NCBI GenBank assembly: GCA_014237975.1
Contig: JABACA010000038.1
Location: forward strand, 1-33,139
Length of the DNA stretch: 33,139 bases
DNA from: Mariniblastus sp.
GTDB taxonomy: Bacteria > Planctomycetota > Planctomycetia > Pirellulales > Pirellulaceae
Direction of reading: 5' to 3'
The notes under the pieces were generated by a model, which saw nothing but the letters and a program-made list of their open reading frames with translations, made no database searches and had not been told where the DNA came from. The number at the start of each line of letters is the position of its first letter. Position 1 is the first letter of the stretch. A program made the position numbers and the translations under genes. Below are positions 1 through 18,599 of this stretch, one piece after another.

Positions 1-3000
1 GCGCGTCCCACAGTTTGATCGTCCTGTCATCACTATCAGATGCAATCGACTGGCCATCGGGGCTGAAGGCGACGCTATTGACCTTCAGTTGATGCCCCGT
101 TAGCGCGTTGAGTTCTTTTCCGCTCAGGGCGTCCCACAGTTTGATCGTGTTGTTGGCAAGGCCTCTTCTGCCGAGTTGGCCAGATGCAATCGTCTGGCCA
201 TTGGGGCTAAAGGCGACGCTGCTGACAGGATGTGTATGCCCCGTTAGCGTGTTGAGTTCCTCTCCCGACTGCGCGTCCCACAGTTTGATGGTGTTGTCCG
301 TGCTGCCAGATACAATCCATTTGCCATCGGGGCTGAAGGCGACGCTTAGGACGTGATCTTTATGTCCATTTCCGGCACGTAGCGTCTTGAGTTCTTTTCC
401 CGTCTGCACGTCCCACAGTTTGATCGTGTTGTCCGAGCTGCCCGATGCAATCCGCTTGCCGTCGGGGCTAAAGGCGACGCTGTAGACAGAGACTGTATGC
501 CCCTTGAGGGATTGGATGCCGGTTTTTATAGACTTGGCTTCCTTTTCTACCATGTCGGCCTGTTTTTTCGCGCTGTCCGGCTCGCCCATGCCGAATTCAG
601 CTTGTCGTTTTAGTTCTAGGGCAGCGGCATTCTGCGGGTCGTTTCGCAGGATTTCCAGGGCGAGGGCCTTGGCGGCCGGGTAATCGCTACGGGCCAACGC
701 GCTTTGGATGCTGGCCTGGCGGAGAGCCTCTTTCTCAGCTTTCATTAACAAAGCTCGGTCTCTAATCTGCGGGTCCACTTTCCCGGAGGCTCCTTCCAAG
801 CCTAGCACCGCATCATAGTTCCCCTTGTCCAGCGCCATCATCTGTGCTTCAACGTTTTCGGGGTAGAGGCCCAGTACATAAGCATAGTTCCCGTTCTGAA
901 GAGCCGTTGCAATTTTGGCTTCTTGCTCTGCAATTTTGGCTTCTTGCTCTGTTGGAATGTACAACCCGATCATACCCACGATCACAACCGCCACCACAAC
1001 AGCGGCACCAATACCAAGCTTGGTTAACAACGCCTTCTGACGCTGGGCCGCCTGCTTGGATTCCTGTTGGGCCACCCGTTGTTGCTGGCAAGCAGCGCGC
1101 GCACTTTCGAATGCGGGATCGCGTAACCCGGATGCCGAAAGGGCTTGTTGATACGTCTTGATTACGGCTAGCGCTTTTTTGAATCCTCCCGTTCCACTGG
1201 CCCGTTTCATCGATTGCATGGCTTGGTAACGATGGTCTCGCAGCGTTTGGCATTTATACAGTAGTTCACTGGACTGTTGGGTCGCCAAATCGTCACTGAT
1301 TCGGTCCAGCGCCGCGACGGCCTCGTCAAACTGGCAGGCCTGGCGAAACTGCTCCGCTTGTTGTATTGACTCGGTGATTAAGGCCGTTTTCCTGCGGTCT
1401 CGATCGACGAGTTGGTCTCGCAATTTTTTCATGTCTGCCGCATCCCCTTTTAGGGCCAGACACTGTTCTACCGTTGGCAGCAGTCCGTCGAGTTGTTTGT
1501 ACTGGACGGCCAGGTTGATCGAATCACGCAGTTTGTTTACCTGGTGGAGATTCTCTCCGGCCGTTTCCCTTAAACTCTCGATTTCCGCATCGACCAACGA
1601 TGCATCAATCCGTTGCAATTGAAGCACACAGCCATCATAATCTTGTGACGCCAGCCGTTTTTTAGCCTCGGCCAATGCCTCGTCCCGTGTCGTGACCAGT
1701 TGGCTGTCCCGCGCAGTAAGTTGTTGGGCCAGCTTTTCGAGCTTTTCCCGGCCGGGTTGCAAAGCCTGTAACTGTTTAACCTCGGCCAGCAGACCGTTGA
1801 GTTGCCGTTTCTTGACCCGGGTACGAATCCGCTGATCAAGCCGTTCGATCTCGGCCACGATTGACTGCAGTTTTCGCTTTAACTGGGTGACGGTCTGGTC
1901 GTGTTTGGGCAAGCTTGTGCCGGAGACCGTCTCGGGAACTTGCTCCAAGGTGCGCAGGCCGGCCGCGTAGTCATGCGCCTGTTGATGCTTGATCGCTTCG
2001 TTCATCAATTCGGCCAAGCGGTTTAGTTCCTGTTCCCGATATTTTTCAATCTCGACCAGGAAACCCTCGGCCCAACCCTTGAGATGCATCAGCCGCAGGT
2101 CCGGCTCGTCGCGCAAGGCGACGGCCACCGATTGGGCCCGGTCAAAATCGAACGCCTTGAGCAAGCTCTCCGCCTCGGCCTGCTCCGATCCCATCTGCGT
2201 GCGGCGCTGGTCCAGCAGTTCGCGTTGCTTCGCACCACAATTGTCGCAGACCTCTTCCCACATCGGGATTTCGGAGCTGCACGAGAGACACGGTACCTCC
2301 AACGACTCGCCACATTCAGGATTTCGGCAGAATTTTCGACTGGTCGGGTTCTTGGTACCACATTGGGGACAGTCGCCCTCTTCGAGTTCCACTTCGGTCG
2401 TACCAGAGCGACTGGCCAGCAAGGCGTCCTTGAATTCGCGCGCATCCTGGTACCGGTCATCCTTCTCGTCCTCGAGTGCCTTGCCCAGGACATCCTGTAA
2501 TGACTGGGGTACGTCGTTGAACTTGATGATCTTGGGGCTCTTGCCGGTGACCATCTGGTACAAGGTGGCCGCCAGGCTCCACAAGTCACTCCGCGCATCG
2601 ACCAGCGCCGCATCCTTGCGTTGCTCGGGCGGCATAAAATCGAGTGTCCCCAGTACGGCTCCGGCCATCGTCATCCCCGTGTCGGCCGTCTCGGCCTTGG
2701 CCAATCCAAAGTCGGTCAGCTTGGGAATGTTGTTCTTGGTCAATAAAATATTGGCTGGTTTGATATCGCGGTGGATGATGTTGGCGTCATGGGCAGCCGC
2801 CAGTCCATCACACAACTGGACGACCAGGTCGATCGATTCATCCAGGGCAATAGCGCCTTGCTGACAACGTTCCAGCAAGTTTTCGCCGGGAACGTATTCC
2901 ATGATCAGGAACGGACCATCGGTGGCACGTCCATAATCGTAGACCTGCACGATGTTCGTGTGATTGAGGGCGGCAACCGATTTAGCCTCGGTTAAAAACC

Positions 3001-3355
3001 GGTTGACGGCCGTTCTTGATCGGGCCGCTTTGCCCAGGATCCGCTTGATCGCCACCTTCCGTTCCAGGCGCGTATCGGTGGCCAGCAGCACCTCGCCCAT
3101 GCCCCCCTTGCCCAGCACGCCATCGGTCGTGTAGCGGGATTCCAGGTCGACGATCTCCATTTGGTCATCGTACAGATCGTCATCGAGCCCAGCCGCATCA
3201 CCGCCGAACGTCATTTCGTCACCGAGGCTACTGGGGCCGGCGTTGGCTCCACCGGCATACGTTTTTTCGTCACCAAGGCTATTGGCGTCAGCCTCGTCGG
3301 AAATTTCGCCGTCAAACGTATTTTGATCGCCCAGGCTCTTGTCGTCGTTGGTCAT
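1..3355 (-). CDS. Large Ser/Thr protein kinase with double zinc ribbon, membrane segment and WD40 repeats (C-terminus beyond left edge)
   Basis: The frame is open from the ATG at 3355 to the window edge (about 1,118 residues visible). A Hanks-type kinase domain spans roughly residues 75-310: glycine loop GKGGMG at 82-87, VAIK lysine 104, HRD at 195-197, DFG at 215-217 and PPE at 242-244. A double zinc ribbon follows (about 319-366, pairs starting CPQCG, CRNPEC, CLSC, CDNCG). Next come a long charged, probably coiled-coil region, one membrane segment near 778-800 (GAAVVVAVVIVG), and from about position 520 down four WD40 blades ending TIKLWDA/V; the fourth reaches the edge. The first 53 residues carry three copies of a SLGD(E/Q)xT(F/Y) motif. 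The kinase would be cytoplasmic and the WD40 propeller on the far side of the membrane, as expected for a planctomycete sensor kinase; its ligand and substrates are not visible. Kinase identity is near certain. Confidence 0.95.
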   Translation of the reverse strand, partial: MTNDDKSLGDQNTFDGEISDEADANSLGDEKTYAGGANAGPSSLGDEMTFGGDAAGLDDDLYDDQMEIVDLESRYTTDGVLGKGGMGEVLLATDTRLERKVAIKRILGKAARSRTAVNRFLTEAKSVAALNHTNIVQVYDYGRATDGPFLIMEYVPGENLLERCQQGAIALDESIDLVVQLCDGLAAAHDANIIHRDIKPANILLTKNNIPKLTDFGLAKAETADTGMTMAGAVLGTLDFMPPEQRKDAALVDARSDLWSLAATLYQMVTGKSPKIIKFNDVPQSLQDVLGKALEDEKDDRYQDAREFKDALLASRSGTTEVELEEGDCPQCGTKNPTSRKFCRNPECGESLEVPCLSCSSEIPMWEEVCDNCGAKQRELLDQRRTQMGSEQAEAESLLKAFDFDRAQSVAVALRDEPDLRLMHLKGWAEGFLVEIEKYREQELNRLAELMNEAIKHQQAHDYAAGLRTLEQVPETVSGTSLPKHDQTVTQLKRKLQSIVAEIERLDQRIRTRVKKRQLNGLLAEVKQLQALQPGREKLEKLAQQLTARDSQLVTTRDEALAEAKKRLASQDYDGCVLQLQRIDASLVDAEIESLRETAGENLHQVNKLRDSINLAVQYKQLDGLLPTVEQCLALKGDAADMKKLRDQLVDRDRRKTALITESIQQAEQFRQACQFDEAVAALDRISDDLATQQSSELLYKCQTLRDHRYQAMQSMKRASGTGGFKKALAVIKTYQQALSASGLRDPAFESARAACQQQRVAQQESKQAAQRQKALLTKLGIGAAVVVAVVIVGMIGLYIPTEQEAKIAEQEAKIATALQNGNYAYVLGLYPENVEAQMMALDKGNYDAVLGLEGASGKVDPQIRDRALLMKAEKEALRQASIQSALARSDYPAAKALALEILRNDPQNAAALELKRQAEFGMGEPDSAKKQADMVEKEAKSIKTGIQSLKGHTVSVYSVAFSPDGKRIASGSSDNTIKLWDVQTGKELKTLRAGNGHKDHVLSVAFSPDGKWIVSGSTDNTIKLWDAQSGEELNTLTGHTHPVSSVAFSPNGQTIASGQLGRRGLANNTIKLWDALSGKELNALTGHQLKVNSVAFSPDGQSIASDSDDRTIKLWDA
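908..951 (-). repeat. 21-bp perfect tandem duplication inside the kinase gene
   Basis: Positions 908-928 and 929-949 are identical, and the match runs two bases further. On the minus strand this encodes the heptapeptide EQEAKIA twice, immediately after the membrane segment. The in-frame heptad duplication extends a probable coiled coil by two helical turns. Confidence 0.9.
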
Positions 3356-3416
3356 GGATATTGGACCTGATGGGAAGTGCAAAACGAGAATTTAAAAACG
3401 AGAAGTTCAAACATTC

Positions 3417-3425
3417 ACTATAGCA
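3417..3425 (-). promoter_or_regulatory. Candidate extended -10 element for the kinase gene
   Basis: On the minus strand the sequence reads TGC-TATAGT, an extended -10 form one base from TATAAT, about 60 nt ahead of the kinase ATG. No convincing -35 hexamer lies at 17 nt. Between it and the start codon are two direct copies of a 10-base AAAACGAGAA sequence (plus-strand reading, 3381-3390 and 3395-3404). Weak evidence only. Confidence 0.3.
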
Positions 3426-3576
3426 GATCGGCAGGGGCGAAATCGTGAGTTCTTGCAGGATCCAGACGTGTTCGAGCCTGGCCGGTTGTTCACTGTTTCA
3501 AACGGCGCGCAACGTTTTCACGTACCACACGGGAAACGAGCGAGTTTCTAAAACGTTTGTGTGAACTACCGCCGTC

Positions 3577-3861
3577 TCATTCGGCTACCGTCACGCCTTT
3601 CCAGAAGGCGACGAAACCTTTTATCTTAACCGCCTCTGGCTTGGGATCTGCATAGTACCAGGCCGCCGCTTCGTTTTTCTCGCCATCGACAACAATATCG
3701 TAATAATTCGCGGTTCCTTTCCACCCACAAACCGTGGTCTGCGGGTTCTCCAACAAGTATTCCCGGTTGAGTGAATCAGCGGGGAAATAGTCGTTGCCAT
3801 CCATCGTTACCGTTTGATCACTCTCGGCGATGATGGCCTGATTCCAGGTAGCTCTTAGCAT
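3577..3861 (-). CDS. DUF427 family protein
   Basis: A 94-residue protein covering essentially one DUF427 domain (PF04248 type): an opening of the form RATWN..IAESD, a central YFPADS, and the family's W-K-G-T-A-x-Y-Y and AAWYY stretches. I chose the ATG at 3861 because GGAG lies 6 nt ahead of it and because the family normally opens this way; an in-frame ATG at 3873 would add four residues. It is the last gene of the operon that begins with the EgtD-like methyltransferase, 17 nt after the transporter stop. The family has a small beta-rich fold and no settled biochemical role, so none is assigned. Confidence 0.85.
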   Translation of the reverse strand: MLRATWNQAIIAESDQTVTMDGNDYFPADSLNREYLLENPQTTVCGWKGTANYYDIVVDGEKNEAAAWYYADPKPEAVKIKGFVAFWKGVTVAE

Positions 3862-3878
3862 CGTTTGCTCCATGTTCG

Positions 3879-5408
3879 TTAATCGGCCGGTTTCAGTCTG
3901 AGTCCTTTGGGAACCACCCAGCGTTCAACCAGCTCAAACAGTAATTGAACCAGGACCGCCATGAGGGCGGCCGGTATGGCGCCTTGCAGGATCAAATCCA
4001 TGCTGTCCAGGCGTATACCCGTCATGATGGGTTGCCCATAACCGCCGGCCCCGATCAATCCGCCCAAGGCGGCAAAACCAACGTTCATCACGGCGGCCGT
4101 TTTAATTCCGGCCAGGATACTCCGCATGGCCAGCGGCATTTCGATGTGAAACAGAGTATAGCGACGGGACAGGCCGAGGGCCTGGGCGGACTCTTTGTAT
4201 TGGTTTTCGATGCCCTGGAAGCCTGCGTAGGTATTGCGGACGATGGGCAACAAGCTGTAAAGGAACAGCGCGATGACGGCTGACAACGAACCCTCGCCGA
4301 TCGACCGGGCGCCCACGATCGCAACCAGCGGCATGACAAGCACCAACAGGGCGAGGGCTGGAATCGTCTGGAAAATCCCCACAACGCCCAGTAATAACTG
4401 GCCCGTAATTCGCCAGCGATAGGCGATGATCCCGAAAGGTATCCCTAACAGAATGGCCGGGATCAACGAGCGGCGAACGAGATCCAGGTGTTCAACCGTG
4501 CGCTTGAGGATCGACATGATGACCGATTCCGGCTGGTTAATCTTGACATCCAAGCCGAGTTGTTCGGCAAGAAATTCACCGGCCACCCGGGTTTCGGTTT
4601 CACGATCAATCCCCTCCACCTTGAGGTTCATCTCGATCATCTGTTGGTCACTGATTTTACCGACCAGCATTTGGATCGCCTGGACTGCCTTGGGATACCG
4701 TTTGGTAAGATCTTGGCGGTATAAAATAACGGCGTCATAGCGTGGAAAAAACTTCCGGTCGTCTTCGAGAACGGCCAGGTCCATCGATTTAATTTTGGCG
4801 TCGGTAGAATAAACATCGATCGCATCCAGCGAGCCGGAGGCAAGCTGCCGATAGGCAATGTCATGGTCCAGGCCTTGCACATTTTGAAAGTCAAAACCGT
4901 AATGCTTCTCGAGCGATTTCCAGCCGTCGTCACGATCGATGAATTCATTACTGAACCCGAATTTCAAATCCGGATAACGGGCCAAGTCGGAGATCTTGCT
5001 GATGCCCAACTGTTGCGCCCGTGATTTCAGCATGCCGATGGCATACTTGTTGTTGAACCCCAGTGGCTTTGTCATGACGATGCCCCGTTCGGCCAGGGCG
5101 GCCGTCAGTTGGGCGTTCGTTTTGATATGCTGGTCGGCAAACGTTTCTTCGATCATGGTCCCGGTGTATTCCGGGTAAGTGTCAATGTCCCCTTTGACCA
5201 GCGCGTTAAAAACCAGCCTCGTGCCGCCCAGCTCCCTGTAATGCGTCGCATTGACGCCGGCCGACCGAATCGCGTCCTTGATCAACTCACCCACGATGAC
5301 ATTTTCGGTGAATTTCTTGGAGCCGACTCGGACGCCCGGTTTCTCGTGCGAAAAAGGCACGATTGCAAACACGACCAGGATCAGGAGAAACAGCCAGAAT
5401 CGATTCAT
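3879..5408 (-). CDS. Fused substrate-binding protein/permease of a betaine-type ABC importer
   Basis: 509 residues. Hydrophobic residues 4-18 form a signal anchor. Residues about 25-290 are an OpuAC/OpuCC-type quaternary-amine binding domain (VGSKKFTEN near the start, the FNNKYA stretch, DVYSTDA). Residues about 310-500 are a BPD_transp_1 permease with the EAA-loop form ESAQALGLSRRYTLFHIEMP. The ATG overlaps the stop of the upstream ATPase gene (ATGA at 5405-5408), so translation is probably coupled. It would import a trimethylammonium or related small solute across the inner membrane. In the fused OpuABC, ProWX and EgtU proteins I know, the permease comes first; here the binding domain is first. 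Placement behind an egtD-like gene favours hercynine or ergothioneine, but glycine betaine, choline or carnitine cannot be excluded. Confidence 0.9.
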   Translation of the reverse strand: MNRFWLFLLILVVFAIVPFSHEKPGVRVGSKKFTENVIVGELIKDAIRSAGVNATHYRELGGTRLVFNALVKGDIDTYPEYTGTMIEETFADQHIKTNAQLTAALAERGIVMTKPLGFNNKYAIGMLKSRAQQLGISKISDLARYPDLKFGFSNEFIDRDDGWKSLEKHYGFDFQNVQGLDHDIAYRQLASGSLDAIDVYSTDAKIKSMDLAVLEDDRKFFPRYDAVILYRQDLTKRYPKAVQAIQMLVGKISDQQMIEMNLKVEGIDRETETRVAGEFLAEQLGLDVKINQPESVIMSILKRTVEHLDLVRRSLIPAILLGIPFGIIAYRWRITGQLLLGVVGIFQTIPALALLVLVMPLVAIVGARSIGEGSLSAVIALFLYSLLPIVRNTYAGFQGIENQYKESAQALGLSRRYTLFHIEMPLAMRSILAGIKTAAVMNVGFAALGGLIGAGGYGQPIMTGIRLDSMDLILQGAIPAALMAVLVQLLFELVERWVVPKGLRLKPAD

Positions 5409-6157
5409 GGGCGGCGCTCTCCGCCCGGTTCAAAGTGGCTTGTCTGCGCCTCAATAAACTCGGTTACAAACGGGTCGGCGGGAGTGTTGACCAGCGTATC
5501 GATCGCGCCTTGTTGGATGATCTGTCCATCGCGCATCAGGATGATCTGGTTACCAAAATAGGCCGCTTCATTCAGGTCGTGTGTAACCATCACCACCGTT
5601 TTGTTCAAAGTCCGAAAGATGTGTCGCAGCTCAACCTGCAACTGGCTGCGAATCATTGGGTCCAGCGCGCCTAGCGGTTCATCCATCAGCAGTATTTCCG
5701 GATTGAGCATCAGGGCTCGCATCAAGCTGACCCGCTGACGTTGGCCGCCCGAAAGCTGGACCGGGTATCGATCAAGGCTGTCGGTCGGCAATTGTGTCAA
5801 TTCGCCCAGCTGTTTGACCCGATCAACAACCTTCTGCTTGGGCCATTTCCGGTAGACGGCGGGCAGCGAGGCATTTTGGCGAGCCGTAAGGTGTGGAAAC
5901 AGTCCGCCGCTCTGTATCACATAGCCAAAATCGGAACGGACCGATTGAATATCGACTTCTGACAACAACCGGTCGTTGTAATAGACCTGGCCCGCATCGG
6001 GACGGATCAACCCGATGATCATCCGCAGCAACGTCGATTTACCACAGCCGCTCGGTCCGACCAGGGTGTAGGTCTGGCCCTGTTGGAGCAACAGATCGAT
6101 TCCGTCTACGACCGTTCGGCCCTCGTATTGCTTGCTGACACCGGTGAGTTTTAGCAT
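5405..6157 (-). CDS. ABC transporter ATP-binding protein of the betaine type
   Basis: 250 residues with all nucleotide-binding motifs: Walker A GPSGCGKST at 34-42, Q-loop glutamine 82, signature LSGGQ at 135-139, Walker B ILLMDEP at 155-161, and the switch histidine in THD near 193. It is closest in character to OpuCA/ProV/EgtV ATPases but lacks the C-terminal CBS pair found in osmosensing OpuA-type ATPases, which argues against simple osmotic gating. It starts 12 nt after the methyltransferase gene and overlaps the binding-protein/permease gene by 4 nt, so the two form one importer: a homodimer of this subunit with two fused permease chains. Confidence 0.93.
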   Translation of the reverse strand: MLKLTGVSKQYEGRTVVDGIDLLLQQGQTYTLVGPSGCGKSTLLRMIIGLIRPDAGQVYYNDRLLSEVDIQSVRSDFGYVIQSGGLFPHLTARQNASLPAVYRKWPKQKVVDRVKQLGELTQLPTDSLDRYPVQLSGGQRQRVSLMRALMLNPEILLMDEPLGALDPMIRSQLQVELRHIFRTLNKTVVMVTHDLNEAAYFGNQIILMRDGQIIQQGAIDTLVNTPADPFVTEFIEAQTSHFEPGGERRP

Positions 6158-6169
6158 GGTCGTTGCTGC

Positions 6170-7294
6170 CTAACACCTTTCGTTGACGAGGTGTAAAACG
6201 GCGAATTGGCGCTCTGGATCAGTCCAATGTTTATGCAGGCTGAATTCGGCGGCAGCGGCCATTTGGGAAAAACCTTCAATGGTATACTTGTGTGAATGCT
6301 CGGTGAAAACAGCTTCGCCAATGCCGAAATGAAACTCTTGTCCTTGGATGGTGGCCGTTTGATCGTGGGTGCTGACAAGATAGATTTCAACCCGCCCGAT
6401 ATTGGAATCATATTCGACATGGTGCCGAAATTGGTCGACGTTGAAATTGCCACCGAGCTGCCGGTTAATGCGATGCAACAGGTTCAAATTGAATTCGGCT
6501 GTAATGTTCCGCGAGTCATCATAGGCCGCTTTGATGATGGACGGTTCTTTCTGTAAATCAATCCCTATCAACAAGCCGCCCTGGGGACCCAACACTCTGG
6601 CGATCATGGACAGCATTTGAGCTGCCTGGTCTGCAGGAAAGTTCCCGATCGTCGATCCTGGAAAATAGACCGCCGCGTGAGACGGCGTGCGGACAGTCTT
6701 GGGCAATTGAAATTCACGAGTGAAATCAGCCACCATCGGCAAGACTTCAACGTCCGGGTAGCGCTGTCTCAGGTCGTCAGCCGTTTTCAGTAAGTGGTCT
6801 TCCGAAATATCGACGGGCACGTAGGCGACCAGGGAGTCAAGCGCCTCGATCAGTGTCCGGGTTTTGATGCTGCTGCCGCTGCCAAATTCAACTAACATGG
6901 CGCCCGTTCCAATTTGATAGGCCATCTCATCGACGTGCCGATCCATGATCATTTGCTCGGTACGGGTCAGATAATACTCGTCGAGTTGGCAGATTTGGTC
7001 GAACAGGTCGGAACCGCGCTCATCATAAAAGTACTTGCAATTCAACTCTTTTTTTGGCTGGCTCAATCCCACCAGCACATCTTTCAGAAACGCGTGGTTA
7101 ATCGATTTGGATTCGGGTTGTTGGATGGGGTAACTCAAGAAAGCGTCCGTCAAATAGTGGGGGTAAATCGAGGCCTGGCGCAGAAATGAACCTTGCCGAA
7201 TGGAATGACTGTGATTCGTAATGATAACAGCTTTAGCGGAGATTGTGCTTGAGGGAAACGCCTCGGCCGGGAGGTTTGTTGTGATCAAGTCCAA
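6170..7294 (-). CDS. egtD: EgtD-like L-histidine N-alpha-methyltransferase
   Basis: 374 residues of the EgtD/DUF2260 SAM-dependent family, which methylates the alpha-amine of histidine three times to give hercynine, the first step of ergothioneine synthesis. Visible hallmarks: KYFYDERGSDLFDQI, the SAM loop LVEFGSGSSIKTR, PGSTIGNF, AAYDDSRNITAEFNLNLL, and TEHSHKY near 331-337. In that last motif E332 and S334 match, as I recall, the imidazole-binding Glu282/Ser284 pair of Mycobacterium EgtD, favouring histidine as substrate. The TTG start at 7294 has no clear ribosome site and gives about 50 extra N-terminal residues, so the true start may be an internal TTG (near 7155). First gene of the operon with the ABC importer. 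No EgtB-, EgtC- or EgtE-like gene is in the window. Confidence 0.88.
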   Translation of the reverse strand: MDLITTNLPAEAFPSSTISAKAVIITNHSHSIRQGSFLRQASIYPHYLTDAFLSYPIQQPESKSINHAFLKDVLVGLSQPKKELNCKYFYDERGSDLFDQICQLDEYYLTRTEQMIMDRHVDEMAYQIGTGAMLVEFGSGSSIKTRTLIEALDSLVAYVPVDISEDHLLKTADDLRQRYPDVEVLPMVADFTREFQLPKTVRTPSHAAVYFPGSTIGNFPADQAAQMLSMIARVLGPQGGLLIGIDLQKEPSIIKAAYDDSRNITAEFNLNLLHRINRQLGGNFNVDQFRHHVEYDSNIGRVEIYLVSTHDQTATIQGQEFHFGIGEAVFTEHSHKYTIEGFSQMAAAAEFSLHKHWTDPERQFAVLHLVNERC

Positions 7295-7340
7295 CGAGGT
7301 GCAGAAGAATTAAGCCAAAAATTCAGCAGTGGCCCGTTTT

Positions 7341-7369
7341 TTGACAGGAGCACAAGATCTTGTTTTAAT
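7341..7369 (+). promoter_or_regulatory. Sigma-70-type promoter for the secreted hydrolase gene
   Basis: TTGACA at 7341-7346, a 17-nt spacer and TTTAAT at 7364-7369 match the sigma-70 consensus at 11 of 12 positions. Transcription would begin near 7376, 67 nt ahead of the ATG at 7443. The site supports that start over an in-frame one at 7329. Confidence 0.6.
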
Positions 7370-7442
7370 CATCAGTCTGGAAGTTATCAAACAGTTGGGT
7401 TGGAGTTGCTGGTTGTCAATCTCGGCAGGGGGGAGTTCGGTC

Positions 7443-8642
7443 ATGGGTCAAAAAGCGAAAAATGGAAAGCTGCGTTTGGGTTGCGCTGTCATTATAATGC
7501 TCGGGTTCTGCGGAAACACGGGTTACAGCTGGGCAACGCAGGACGCGCCAGCCGATTCGGAAGTCAAACTGAGGGTTGGATACGCGCAATCGGAAGACGC
7601 CGCCAAGGCTGAGTTGCTGGACGTTATTTCCAAGCTGAAAAATCAGCAAGACTGGGAAGCCAGGGCTTCGAAAATTAGAGACGGGATCCTTCGCGGGGCA
7701 AAACTTACTCGGTTGCCGAAGCGGACACCCCTTAATCCGATCTACAATTCTTTGCGAACTTACGATGGCTACACAGCTGAAAACGTGGCGATCGAAAGCT
7801 CGCCTGGTTTTTTTGTCACCGGCACCATTTATCGACCTGTTGAGTTTCAAGGAAAACTGGCAGGCATCCTGTCGGCTCATGGTCACGCCGGTCGTTTTGA
7901 TCCGAACCGCCAAAAACGATGTGCTGTTCTTGCAAAAATGGGGGCCGTTGTTTTTCATTATGACATGATGGGCTATGGTGATTCCAAGGTGGCGGGATGG
8001 GATCACCGCCAAACCCCCGAGCTGCTTCGCCTGCAGACATGGAACAGCATGCGGGCGCTCGATTTTTTAGAAGCGATGGAAGATGTCGATTCGGCGCGAC
8101 TCGCCGTCACGGGTTGCTCCGGCGGGGCCACCCAAACGTTCCTGCTGACAGCGCTTGACGACCGGATTGCCGTTTCGGTTCCCGTCTGCCAGGTGTCGGC
8201 ACATTTTTTCGGGGGTTGTGTGTGTGAGAGCGGGATGCCAATTCATTGGAGCAAGGATCATAAAACGACCAACCCGGAAATTGCCGCATTGGCGGCGCCG
8301 CGGCCGCTTTTGTTGGTTTCCAATGGCGACGATTGGACCAAAAACACGCCAAAGATTGAGTATCCTTTCGTGCAGTACATCTATGGCTTGCACGGCAAAG
8401 ACGCAATTGTCGAAAACGCGCATTTCGAAAACGAGGGCCATGATTATGGACCGTCAAAACGAATGGCCGTTTATCCTTTCATGGCAAAGCATCTCGGTTT
8501 GGATTTGGATAATGTGACCAAAGACGGAAAAGTGGACGAGAGCTTTATCACTACCGAAACCCAGCAGCAGATGATGTCGTTCCACGGGAAATACCCGCCC
8601 AACGCGGTAGCACCCAACACGCCGCTGCCGGCGGTTGACTGA
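7443..8642 (+). CDS. Secreted alpha/beta hydrolase (acetyl xylan esterase/peptidase-like)
   Basis: 400 residues beginning with a cleavable signal sequence (basic start, hydrophobic core CAVIIMLGF). The ATG at 7443 is preceded by a strong GGGGGAG ribosome site 8 nt upstream and lies below a good promoter; an in-frame start at 7329 would precede that promoter. The alpha/beta-hydrolase triad is readable: nucleophile Ser226 in GCSGG, an acid at Asp296/297 in NGDDWT, and His333 in EGHDYG. An oxyanion-side loop AHGHAG lies ahead. Planctomycetes have many such secreted hydrolases beside polysaccharide-degrading genes, but no such partner is here; the substrate is unknown. It converges on the BlaI-type repressor gene. 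Confidence 0.88.
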
Positions 8643-8721
8643 AGTCGTGTATGGGTAAGATCGGTTGCGACAATGATGTCTGTCGGCACAAGATCGCTGG
8701 CCGGAACCCAGCAGGATCCAA

Positions 8722-9153
8722 CTAAGCCGGCTGCGACGACTGGCCGCCTGTCGGGCCTACCTGTTCGGATTCCCTGCGTTCGCTCTGGTGGCAAGCGTCC
8801 TGGATGTCTGCCAACAGCTCCTGTAAATACTTGGCTTGATCGGAACTGAGATTGGACGAAGATGCCAAATAGGCAACCGCCGCGGCAGGTTGGCCGTCAA
8901 ACACAACCTGGATCAGCTGGCTACAAGCCTGGGCAATCGACTCGGCATGCGACCGATGGGCCGAATAAAGATACCGATTGCCTTTGCGCCGAAAGCCGAT
9001 CGCCTCTTTTTCCATCAACCGATGTAAAACGGTTTTGATGGTTGCGGGCGTGCTGCCGATTTTGGACGAGAGATCCCTGATGATTTCCCGGGAGGTAGTG
9101 GGTTGGCCTTGCCAGACACTCTTCAATATCTGCCATTCCAATTCTGTGTACAT
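8722..9153 (-). CDS. BlaI/MecI/CopY-family transcriptional repressor
   Basis: 143 residues. The winged-helix region of this family is clear in the first 75 residues: ELEWQILKSVW, a recognition-helix region TPATIKTVLHRLMEKEAIG, and a wing RRKGNRYLYSA. The C-terminal half resembles the dimerisation region where BlaI/MecI are cleaved. The ATG at 9153 is preceded by AGGGAA at 5-6 nt; an upstream start at 9219 would add 22 unlike residues. Such repressors usually sit beside a BlaR1/MecR1-type M56 membrane peptidase that inactivates them. None is within the window on either side, so the gene looks like an orphan regulator. Confidence 0.93.
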   Translation of the reverse strand: MYTELEWQILKSVWQGQPTTSREIIRDLSSKIGSTPATIKTVLHRLMEKEAIGFRRKGNRYLYSAHRSHAESIAQACSQLIQVVFDGQPAAAVAYLASSSNLSSDQAKYLQELLADIQDACHQSERRESEQVGPTGGQSSQPA

Positions 9154-9341
9154 CCGATTCCCTTTTTTGAAACGCCAAGCCACGTTCTGGCCTGCCGTGC
9201 CCATTAGCCGATGAACCACCCAGCGATGGCCGAACCTGGTGCTGGCCCATCAAGTGCCTGGGGAGTCGAAACTGGCTGGCTAGTGAGACCAAGGCGCCTT
9301 TCTGGTTTTCGGCAGTCAAAGTTATCTCACTTAAGCAATTC

Positions 9342-15478: not shown

Positions 15479-16513
15479 ATGAAACCAGACGACAGGGAAC
15501 ACGCGAATGATCCCGGCCCGCACGAGCAGGCCTCGCTGCAGGCGATCGACCATGCGTGTGTCTGGCGCGGCAGCGAGCTTTCGACGCGAACCGATTGGGA
15601 CCAGCAGGCCTCGCCGCAAGAACAGTTGGAATTTGACCGGTTGGCCCAGGGATCGTCGATCGATGCAGCACCTTGCCTGGAGAAGCGCGGCAGGTCGATC
15701 CGGGAATCACTGGAAACGGGATCGGGCGGGGTTCACCTGCGGGGACTGGATGTATCGAGTCACTCGCCCGAATCTCTCAGCGCGGCGTTTCTGAAGTTGA
15801 CCGAAACGATTGGCCATCCGATATCGCAAAGCGCTGCCGGCGAAAAGATCTTCAGTGTCCGCAACGCCGGTTACGCCGACGACGACCCCCGCGCCCGAGG
15901 GCCCAACACCCGAAAAAAATTGAGCTTCCATACCGATCGATGCGATGTGATCGGGTTCTTGTGCATTCGCCAAGCGCGATCGGGGGGCGAGAACCAGGTG
16001 GTTAGCTCGGCCGCGCTGTTTAATGAAATGCTGCACAACCACGCTGAACTGCTGCATGTCTTGATGCGGCCTTTTTATTACCAACGACACAACGTCGATA
16101 CGGCCAACCAGCTACCCTACACCCAGCAACCCATTTTTTCGATTTACCAGGGCCACTTTGCCGCCAATTTCCTGCGCGTCCTGATCGAGCGGGCTCATGC
16201 GAACCCGGATTTGCCCGATCTGACCAGCGCTCAACGCGAAGCCTTGGACTGTCTCGAGGCAATCGCCGCCCGGCCGGAGATGCACTACACGTTTCGGCAA
16301 CAACCGGGTGACATCCTGTTTCTCAACAACTGGGTCACGTTCCACCGGCGAACCGAGTTTGAGGATTTTGAAGACCCGCCGCTGCGGAGGCATATCCTGC
16401 GGGCCTGGCTGAGCATGCCCAACAGTCGCCCGGTCGACCCGTTGTTTGCCGGGAATTACGGTGACACCCGGGCGGGCGCCGTGCGGGGCGGCATGCGGGC
16501 CATCACGTCTTAG
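15479..16513 (+). CDS. TauD/TfdA-family Fe(II)/2-oxoglutarate dioxygenase
   Basis: 344 residues with a TauD-type double-stranded beta-helix. Iron ligands are visible as His151-x-Asp153 in FHTDRCD and distal His289 in NNWVTFHRRTEFED, followed by arginines 304/308 in RRHILRAWLSMP for 2-oxoglutarate. The first 80 residues are polar and variable. The family hydroxylates small molecules such as taurine, gamma-butyrobetaine or amino-acid derivatives using O2; the C-terminal block is closer to the amino-acid/betaine hydroxylase branch than to TauD itself, an impression rather than a measured result. It lies 80 bases after the propeller gene and converges on hutH. Confidence 0.88.
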   Translation: MKPDDREHANDPGPHEQASLQAIDHACVWRGSELSTRTDWDQQASPQEQLEFDRLAQGSSIDAAPCLEKRGRSIRESLETGSGGVHLRGLDVSSHSPESLSAAFLKLTETIGHPISQSAAGEKIFSVRNAGYADDDPRARGPNTRKKLSFHTDRCDVIGFLCIRQARSGGENQVVSSAALFNEMLHNHAELLHVLMRPFYYQRHNVDTANQLPYTQQPIFSIYQGHFAANFLRVLIERAHANPDLPDLTSAQREALDCLEAIAARPEMHYTFRQQPGDILFLNNWVTFHRRTEFEDFEDPPLRRHILRAWLSMPNSRPVDPLFAGNYGDTRAGAVRGGMRAITS

Positions 16514-16516
16514 CCT

Positions 16517-16543
16517 GCCGGCGAGTGGCGAATCCTCGTCGGC
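16517..16543. terminator. Hairpin between convergent dioxygenase and hutH genes
   Basis: GCCGGCGAG at 16517-16525 pairs with CTCGTCGGC at 16535-16543 (9 bp, one G-T pair, 9-nt loop) in the 29-bp gap between the two stops. No T tract on either side, so a bidirectional stop signal is likely but not certain. Confidence 0.4.
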
Positions 16544-18066
16544 TACCAGATGGTGACCGGTATCGACGGCGGAAAATCGGCTTCCTCCGTGATTAACTGC
16601 TTGATCGTCTCGATGTCCGGTGCAAAAAAACGGTCCTTGTCATAGTGCTCCACCCGTTTGCGGATCTCGGTATGGATCGACTCCAGGAAAGGGCTCGTCT
16701 TGAGTGGCCGGCGGAAATCAATCCCCTGGGCCGCAGCCAACAGTTCGATCGCCACAATCGTCTCCGTATTGTCAACCATGTCGCCAAGTCGTCGAGCCGC
16801 AAACGTTGCCATGCTGACATGATCTTCCTGGTTGGCCGAGGTCGGCAAACTGTCAACCGAGGCGGGGTGCGCCAGCGACTTGTTTTCGCTGGCCAGCGCA
16901 GCGGCCGTAACATGGGCAATCATGAACCCGGAGTTCAATCCGCCCTGTTCCACCAGGAAGGGCGGCAGTTCACTGAGGTGCTCATCGATCAACAAGGCAA
17001 TTCTTCTTTCGGACAAGGCGCCAATTTCGGCGACCGCCAGTGCCAGGTTGTCGGCCGCCAGGGCAACCGGCTCGGCGTGAAAATTGCCCCCGGAAAGAAC
17101 CTCTTCCGTCTCCGGAAAAATCAGCGGGTTGTCGGTAACACTGTTGGCCTCGTCCAGCAGGACCTCACCCACAAATTGGATCTGGTCGTGACAGGCTCCC
17201 ATGACCTGCGGCTGACAGCGCAGGGAATAGGGATCCTGAACCCGGTTGCAATCCAGGTGCGACTCGCGAATCTGGCTGTCCGACAACAGGGTGCGAAAAA
17301 TGGCCGCACATTGCTGCTGTCCTGAATGGGCTCGTGAAAAATGAATCCGTGCATCAAACGGAGTGTCGCTCCCCATCGCCGCATCCACACTCATCGCACC
17401 GGCAATCAGCGCGGACTGGAAAACATGGCGAATTCGCAACAGGCCGTCGATGGCCAAGGCGGTCGAGACCTGAGTGCCGTTGAGCAAGGCCAGGCCTTCC
17501 TTGGGGCCCAGCCGAATCGGTTGCAAACCGATTTTTTCCAGGGCCTGCCCTGCCGGCATGGTCTTGCCCTTGAGCCGAAACTGGCCCACGCCAATCAGCG
17601 CAGCGGCCATGTGGGCCAGTGGCGCGAGATCCCCCGACGCACCCACACTCCCTTTGGACGGTATGACTGGCAGCGCATCGGCGTTGAGCAACTGGGTCAT
17701 CATCTCGACCAGCTCCAGGCGGACCCCCGAATGACCCTGGGCCAGCGAACGGATCTTGAGCAACAGGACCAGCCGGACCACCCGGTCGGCGAGAGCAGGT
17801 CCGGTACCAACCGCATGGGACAGGACCAGGTTGGTTTGCAGCTGGTCCAGGTCCTCGGGTGAAATACGTTTTGTCGCCAGCAACCCAAACCCCGTGTTGA
17901 TCCCGTAAACCGTTTGGCCCGATTCCAGGATCGCTGTCAGCGCGTTGTGACATCGCGTGATCAGTTCCCGGCTGTCATCCGTGATTCGAATCGGTGCGGC
18001 CGCTGCCCGGACTTTGGCCAGCGAGTCCAATTCAAGGCGGTCTGTTGAAATTTCAATGGAAGACAT
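16543..18066 (-). CDS. hutH: Histidine ammonia-lyase
   Basis: 507 residues. The MIO-forming triad Ala143-Ser144-Gly145 sits in GSVGASGDLAPLAH, at the position found in Pseudomonas HutH. YGINTGFG carries the catalytic tyrosine, LSHAVGTG the histidine typical of His/Tyr rather than Phe lyases, and SANQEDHVSM the glutamate that marks histidine enzymes. It deaminates L-histidine to urocanate, the first step of histidine breakdown. hutU, hutI and hutG are not in the window. I use the ATG at 18066; a TTG at 18075 would overlap the preceding stop. The gene follows the small membrane-protein gene by 5 nt and is probably in its transcript. A tyrosine ammonia-lyase or aminomutase is a less likely reading. 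Confidence 0.93.
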   Translation of the reverse strand: MSSIEISTDRLELDSLAKVRAAAAPIRITDDSRELITRCHNALTAILESGQTVYGINTGFGLLATKRISPEDLDQLQTNLVLSHAVGTGPALADRVVRLVLLLKIRSLAQGHSGVRLELVEMMTQLLNADALPVIPSKGSVGASGDLAPLAHMAAALIGVGQFRLKGKTMPAGQALEKIGLQPIRLGPKEGLALLNGTQVSTALAIDGLLRIRHVFQSALIAGAMSVDAAMGSDTPFDARIHFSRAHSGQQQCAAIFRTLLSDSQIRESHLDCNRVQDPYSLRCQPQVMGACHDQIQFVGEVLLDEANSVTDNPLIFPETEEVLSGGNFHAEPVALAADNLALAVAEIGALSERRIALLIDEHLSELPPFLVEQGGLNSGFMIAHVTAAALASENKSLAHPASVDSLPTSANQEDHVSMATFAARRLGDMVDNTETIVAIELLAAAQGIDFRRPLKTSPFLESIHTEIRKRVEHYDKDRFFAPDIETIKQLITEEADFPPSIPVTIW

Positions 18067-18071
18067 ATGGA

Positions 18072-18599
18072 TCAATGTGATTGGAGGGACTGTTGTTGGA
18101 TTTCAGCAACTGACAGTCCCTGCTGGCGAAGGCGGAAGGCCTGGGCAACGCCCGGGTTAAAATAGATAATGCAGCCCCAAACACAGAGCCCTACCGCCGT
18201 AAAAACACAGTAACAGGTTAACAGGTTCAGCAGCCCGACAAAAAACGAACTGATTCCCAGAACCCGCCCTTTTAACTGCAGGTTACGGATTCCAGCCAGG
18301 ATTCGCAAACCGCCGGCCAGAATGGATAGCCCCCCACCGGCCCCGTAAACAATGCCCATAATCATCAACATCATTGTCTCTTCTTCGGCGGGCATCTGCG
18401 TACCTGCCTGGCCTTGATTGTTTATTATTACGGGGAACAGAAACGCCATGGCAACATAAATACCGCCCACTATTATTTCAAGTGTGCCCTGAACGATCGA
18501 ACAGATGGCAATCGCTTTGACCTGGCCCAGCAGGCGGCCAGGAGGATCAAAGTTCTTGGGCGAACCGGTTGCCGTGGGTGATGCATAGGGATTACTCAT
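18072..18599 (-). CDS. Membrane protein with N-terminal NPYASP motif, function unknown
   Basis: 175 residues starting MSNPYASP, a motif common at the front of planctomycete membrane proteins. About four membrane segments follow (AIAICSIVQGTLEIIVGGIY, MLMIMGIVYGAGGGLSILAG, SSFFVGLLNLLTCYC, FTAVGLCVWGCIIYF), and a polar C-tail ends in QGLSVAEIQQQ. No enzymatic motif. The stop is 5 nt ahead of hutH, so the two are probably co-transcribed, although nothing links this protein to histidine use. Confidence 0.82.
   Translation of the reverse strand: MSNPYASPTATGSPKNFDPPGRLLGQVKAIAICSIVQGTLEIIVGGIYVAMAFLFPVIINNQGQAGTQMPAEEETMMLMIMGIVYGAGGGLSILAGGLRILAGIRNLQLKGRVLGISSFFVGLLNLLTCYCVFTAVGLCVWGCIIYFNPGVAQAFRLRQQGLSVAEIQQQSLQSH

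Follow-up and report, generated by a model that had tools for sequence, protein, structure and literature searches.

INTRODUCTION

EgtD makes hercynine, the trimethyl-histidine precursor of ergothioneine. The described systems closest to the locus considered here are the egtB-egtD ergothioneine gene clusters, the importer EgtU of the pneumococcus (SpEgtU, consisting of EgtUA and EgtUBC) and of Helicobacter pylori (8dp6/8dp7), and the glycine betaine-binding protein ProX of Archaeoglobus fulgidus (AfProX, 1sw1/1sw2). H. pylori presumably lacks egtD. The EgtU study, in its available text, dealt with uptake in bacteria unable to make ergothioneine and reported SpEgtU homologues nearly exclusively in Firmicutes (PMC9732360).

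Here, we analyzed an operon of Mariniblastus sp. (Planctomycetota) in which egtD is accompanied by an ATP-binding cassette (ABC) importer and a gene for a DUF427 protein. The window, i.e., the whole stretch of 33,139 bases that was analyzed, is a complete contig (JABACA010000038.1; G000:C321) of an assembly with 404 contigs and 94.8% completeness. On balance, we lean toward reading this operon as an ergothioneine gene cluster in which synthesis is coupled to uptake. Compared with the egtB-egtD clusters, with which it shares an EgtD of the equivalog family and in many relatives an egtB beside egtD, the window adds a fused importer and DUF427, whereas egtB was not recognized in its own genome. 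A literature search combining ergothioneine, Planctomycetes, and egtD found no paper, and one on ergothioneine, import, biosynthesis, and Planctomycetota returned only a paper on rapeseed clubroot.

RESULTS

The four genes form a single tightly packed operon on the minus strand: egtD, for a predicted L-histidine N-alpha-methyltransferase (6170..7294); the importer ATPase (5405..6157; ABC_tran, 8.1e-36); the fused importer protein, with the substrate-binding domain N-terminal and the permease C-terminal (3879..5408); and the DUF427 gene (3577..3873). The original prediction of a four-gene operon was borne out, as every gene is present and the family scores agree; egtD and the ATPase gene lie 12 nt apart, and the ATPase and fused-protein genes share 4 nt, both as previously stated. 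The gap of 17 nt given for the fused-protein and DUF427 genes holds when counted from the second ATG, from which the earlier reader seems to have started, but it shrinks to 5 nt when the first ATG is used.

The assignment of the methyltransferase proved sound. It scored 380 bits against the TIGR03438 equivalog, above the cut-off of 290.9, and 354 bits against Methyltransf_33 (PF10017), and phmmer matched it to the EgtD structure 4pim at 8.9e-50. The E and S of the TEHS motif and the N of the GSTIGNF motif are invariant across 16 aligned EgtD sequences. At the positions that we take to form the histidine site of Mycobacterium smegmatis EgtD (G161, T163, N166, Y206, E282, S284, and M252), six of seven residues are kept in the alignment with 4pim, M252 being replaced by I. 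As judged from the family scores and the invariant motif residues, the window egtD is predicted to encode an L-histidine N-alpha-methyltransferase yielding hercynine; it is an ordinary EgtD in unusual but widely recurrent gene company. Its true start probably lies downstream of the TTG at 7294, because the alignment begins only at residue 40 for the homologue from a genome of the same genus (G005) and at residue 53 or beyond for the rest.

The fused importer protein carries OpuAC at residues 26 to 282 and BPD_transp_1 at residues 322 to 501, with domains at about 22 to 286 and about 300 to 505. Its nearest solved binding domains are those of H. pylori EgtU (154.7 bits) and pneumococcal EgtU (154.5 bits), with ProX at 128.8 bits, and the top Foldseek match of the predicted model (predicted local distance difference test score of 95) was H. 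pylori EgtU 8dp6. The earlier description of the importer as EgtU-like thus agrees with both the sequence and the Foldseek ranking. The ATPase reached 226.6 bits against the ProV-type model TIGR01186, below the cut-off of 326.6. Like SpEgtU, the window system has an OpuAC-type domain fused to a permease and a separate ATPase, with 36% identity over 259 positions, but its domain order is reversed: EgtUBC has the permease first and then the binding domain, whereas the binding domain comes first in the window. Permease-first fusions also occur in genomes of the same family and order (L222-L224). In a tree of the importer built by a quick method from 111 rows, with fragment G247 omitted, the 103 rows labeled as fused fell in two changes, not one, and the reference branches were long; therefore, a single origin of the fused form is not established.

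We compared the binding pocket at positions 242, 243, 244, 275, 293, 296, 337, 339, 341, 375, 379, 419, and 443 (SpEgtUC numbering), which read KKFTYTFNYERYY in the window, KIGTFTYNYERYY in SpEgtUC, KPSTYTFNYDRFY in H. pylori, and KPFTYTFDYERYY in AfProX. The window has identical residues at all of the cage and ligand positions given in the available text of PMC9732360 (K242, T275, T296, N339, Y341, E375, R379, Y419, and Y443), so that the cation-pi cage and carboxylate residues of SpEgtU are retained. In contrast, the ergothioneine determinants G244, F293, and Y337 of SpEgtU are replaced by F, Y, and F. Because the features that separate EgtU from ProX in the available text of that study (PMC9732360) are absent, the importer is, on its sequence, EgtU-like and not EgtU.

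These replacements bring the pocket close to that of a glycine betaine-binding protein, and it could be argued that what travels with the egt genes is an ordinary osmoprotectant system for glycine betaine or choline, perhaps as a methyl supply from betaine or through a shared stress role. Of the 13 positions, 11 are identical in the window and AfProX, F244, Y293, and F337 among them, and only 243 (P in ProX, K in the window) and 339 (D in ProX, N in the window) differ; the window also has an AfProX-type cage of four tyrosines (Y293, Y341, Y419, and Y443) together with F244 and F337; moreover, the fold comparison failed to separate EgtU from ProX/OpuC. A plain glycine betaine pocket, named in the original prediction as a finding that would count against it, is thus seen at the three positions said to distinguish SpEgtU from AfProX (F244, Y293, and F337). 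However, this likeness is not decisive, because the ergothioneine-bound H. pylori EgtU (8dp7) also has Y293 and F337. The H. pylori protein shares N339 as well, although it has S244, D375, and F419 where the window has F244, E375, and Y419, and AfProX Asp339 has no counterpart in the window, which has N as in both EgtU proteins. Furthermore, no betaine user was found among the neighbor families that were identified, which are a part of all neighbor families. Together with the co-occurrence data given below, this makes an osmoprotectant system rather unlikely in our view. Since the G244F mutant of SpEgtUC still binds ergothioneine (Ka of 2e5 per molar, according to the available text of PMC9732360), ergothioneine may still be a ligand; we consider it the most likely substrate, with hercynine or glycine betaine also in play.

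The gene company recurs among relatives. In a set of 60 genomes that includes the own genome, with the importer counted at E values below 1e-100, EgtD was found in 20 genomes, the fused importer in 15, DUF427 in 12, and EgtB over its cut-off in 17. EgtD was present in all 15 importer genomes but in only 5 of the 45 without the importer (Fisher P = 2.9e-10), and in all 12 DUF427 genomes (P = 9.0e-8). Leaving out 27 relatives of the same genus gave P values of 3.2e-5 and 1.3e-4, respectively; beyond this step, kinship is not accounted for in the P values. Seven of the 15 genomes with the importer (the own genome, G005, G049, G051, G054, G057, and G058) have it at one locus with egtD, no more than 3 kb separates DUF427 from egtD or egtB in 8 of the 12 DUF427 genomes, and an importer match was also found in 8 of the 32 EgtD neighborhoods opened outside the order. 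At one further locus (L037, genome G041), DUF427, an ATPase resembling that of the importer, and egtD stand together, and the gene for the fused protein is found on the same contig at a distance of about 1 Mb.

When named genomes were scanned with the importer alignment, at least 592 stretches matched and at least 541 of these were confirmed; the best 80 were kept. Up to 7 kb of flanking sequence was fetched, or less where a contig ended sooner, and open frames were read from the first possible start. Among these best 80 loci, the flanks contained egtD in 30, egtB in 24, and either gene in 32, within 500 bp of an importer gene in 28 of the 32. In one cultured carrier, Panacagrimonas perspica DSM 26377 (L182), the importer is adjacent to egtB. 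The linked loci come from 11 named phyla and two records without a phylum, and 14 of them are from Planctomycetota; where at least 5 kb was available on both sides, 16 of 43 loci were linked. As the arrangement is present in relatives (7/15 genomes and 32/80 loci), the objection that no related genome has it fails. Of the 48 genomes with an unlinked importer, 38 encode EgtD elsewhere (35 over the cut-off), the background being 50/199 in Planctomycetota and 52/249 in Pseudomonadota.

The remaining 10 of the 48 have no EgtD, which would suit an osmoprotectant system. Many of the genomes are drafts, and missing genes are therefore expected; one of the 10, however, is a Nitrospiraceae record titled chromosome (L149), so import without synthesis may occur. 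Against an osmoprotectant role stand the presence of EgtD in every importer genome of the 60-genome set and the weak general tie between EgtD and OpuAC/permease matches (in Pseudomonadota, 17/46 genomes with such matches versus 34 of the other 202). In the Pseudomonadota sample, two importer matches exceeded 500 bits (G268, the chosen center, and G511), both with EgtD, and four at 382 to 401 bits were without EgtD. Each of the four contains one or two internal stop codons and may thus represent separate genes, although the G268 match also contains one stop codon.

The original prediction also stated that no egtB-type gene is present and that hercynine itself could be the end product. The first statement held for the window, where tblastn with the G005 EgtB gave a best E value of 0.47, and for the draft genome, where no match to EgtB (TIGR03440) passed the cut-off (best 58.7 bits versus 360). 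Nevertheless, G005 has the order egtD-ATPase-fused protein-DUF427-egtB, with a flank upstream of egtD that is syntenic with the window, whereas the 194 bp past DUF427 in the window (3383..3576) contain no egtB. Because egtB follows DUF427 in G005 and the own genome shows none, its loss or relocation is likely; with 94.8% completeness and 404 pieces, egtB may also be absent by chance through an assembly gap. The fused MES (molybdopterin oxidoreductase plus class V aminotransferase), treated in the available text of PMC9516567, gave only separate partial matches in the own genome when the protein from locus L133 was used as query. Thus, of the sulfur-inserting enzymes, EgtB and fused MES were sought in the own genome and neither was recognized; EanB-type rhodanese was not searched for.

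These negatives, together with an intact EgtD whose residues are kept, would fit an importer for hercynine (histidine betaine), with hercynine as the end product in the own genome; as the SpEgtU-specific features are absent, the discrimination of SpEgtU against hercynine need not apply. We regard this as unlikely. As an end product, hercynine is not the rule, since, within the 60-genome set, EgtB passes the cut-off in 17 of the 20 genomes with EgtD and in 13 of the 15 with the importer. A full-length EgtB match in G025 (340 bits) falls just below the cut-off of 360, which leaves two genomes without EgtB over or just below it: the own genome and G040, the EgtD of which has only 34% identity. 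The G005 operon includes egtB, and the gap in the own genome may be due to chance. In addition, the affinity of SpEgtUC for hercynine is thousands of times lower than that for ergothioneine (Table 1 of PMC9732360).

At three loci, proteins of about 1,120 to 1,170 residues that join molybdopterin oxidoreductase and class V aminotransferase domains are encoded beside egtD: L133 (10151-13516, a Scalindua genome), L171 (9450-12962, an Eisenbacteria genome), and L095 (3933-7337, G147). Their domain make-up matches the expectation for MES, and an adjacent importer is present in the Scalindua and Eisenbacteria genomes.

The DUF427 protein scored 99.7 bits against PF04248 (gathering cut-off, 22.1) and has a predicted beta-tent fold, the same as that of the family structure 3djm; unlike the family at large, it is tied here to egt genes. 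The available text of PMC4287342 calls DUF427 a domain of unknown function, and a literature search for DUF427 and ergothioneine together found no paper. DUF427 had been put forward as a new component, and our data support it as a companion that egt genes have repeatedly but not always. The stronger view of an egt-bound family was rejected: 188 plasmid records match DUF427, many of them from Burkholderia glumae, Acinetobacter, and Klebsiella, and these genera go unnamed among the 32 plasmid records with EgtB (E value of 1e-50 or better). When 11 egtB/egtD loci were opened, DUF427 was present in 3 (Sinorhizobium mexicanum, Comamonas testosteroni, and Picosynechococcus) and absent from 8, a proportion that gives no rate because those three were opened after DUF427 matches on the same records. 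At the DUF427 loci of Kitasatospora and Sphingomonas, no egtB or egtD was annotated or matched nearby. One planctomycete genus code (G107, G128, and G239) has DUF427 without EgtD, and in L121, from G107, the CGWKG stretch has Ser in place of its near-invariant Cys.

The clustering might also stem from shared transfer or chance, the importer, DUF427, and EgtD being functionally unconnected. Plasmids carry egtB/egtD and DUF427, which makes joint transfer possible, and DUF427 occurs without EgtD in 24 of 49 Pseudomonadota genomes and in the control genome of Deinobacterium chartae. However, the company stays constant while gene order and orientation differ between lineages, and the co-occurrence persists without linkage (38/48). 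We therefore consider such an origin very unlikely.

Upstream of egtD, the window encodes a Penicillinase_R (BlaI/MecI-type) regulator on the minus strand (8722..9219; PF03965, 2e-25). A 69% identical homologue in G005 (open reading frame L025 9206-9643) lies on the same strand directly upstream of egtD (7991-8956), and the protein is a possible regulator of the operon. Between the regulator gene and egtD, the window has a plus-strand gene for an esterase-like protein (7329-8642; GCE_fung match), to which no open frame of the G005 locus gave a match. On the other side, beyond the 194 bp that follow DUF427, a minus-strand open frame (2-3382) runs off the contig end; judged by sight, it may encode a Ser/Thr kinase with WD40 repeats. 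Farther away, an aromatic amino acid lyase gene (16543-18075, minus strand; PF00221, 639 bits) is convergent with that for a TauD-type dioxygenase (15479-16513, plus strand), and both are conserved in G005 (91% identity, partial, and 78%, respectively). Should histidine be the substrate of the lyase, this enzyme may have a bearing on the substrate of EgtD.

DISCUSSION

Based on family membership and the kept residues, EgtD would trimethylate histidine to hercynine, which would be converted to ergothioneine by EgtB in most EgtD-bearing relatives and by an MES-like protein in a few other genomes. In the own genome, this second step appears to have been lost or to be absent from the assembly. The ABC system, with its binding domain fused ahead of the permease and served by the ATPase, may import a trimethylammonium compound of the pathway, most likely ergothioneine recaptured after leakage or scavenged from neighbors and less likely hercynine. 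In the own genome, ergothioneine could then be supplied by import, with EgtD still producing hercynine. DUF427 may serve as an optional accessory protein by binding or processing a compound of the pathway.

SpEgtU homologues and the window-type importer differ in distribution, the latter being spread over many phyla, mainly in genomes that encode EgtD. A more far-reaching proposal, which we put forward tentatively, is that a dedicated group of importers with reversed domain order is present in many producers and that DUF427 takes a genuine part in ergothioneine metabolism as a beta-tent protein, holding or repairing (e.g., re-reducing) ergothioneine in its ligand groove. The recurrent partnership with egt genes makes the function of this orphan family directly testable. 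If the proposal is true, the large DUF427 family would gain a function, a widespread importer tied to synthesis would mean that the makers of ergothioneine also recapture or share it, and an importer gene tied to the biosynthesis genes would be a genomic marker for such species.
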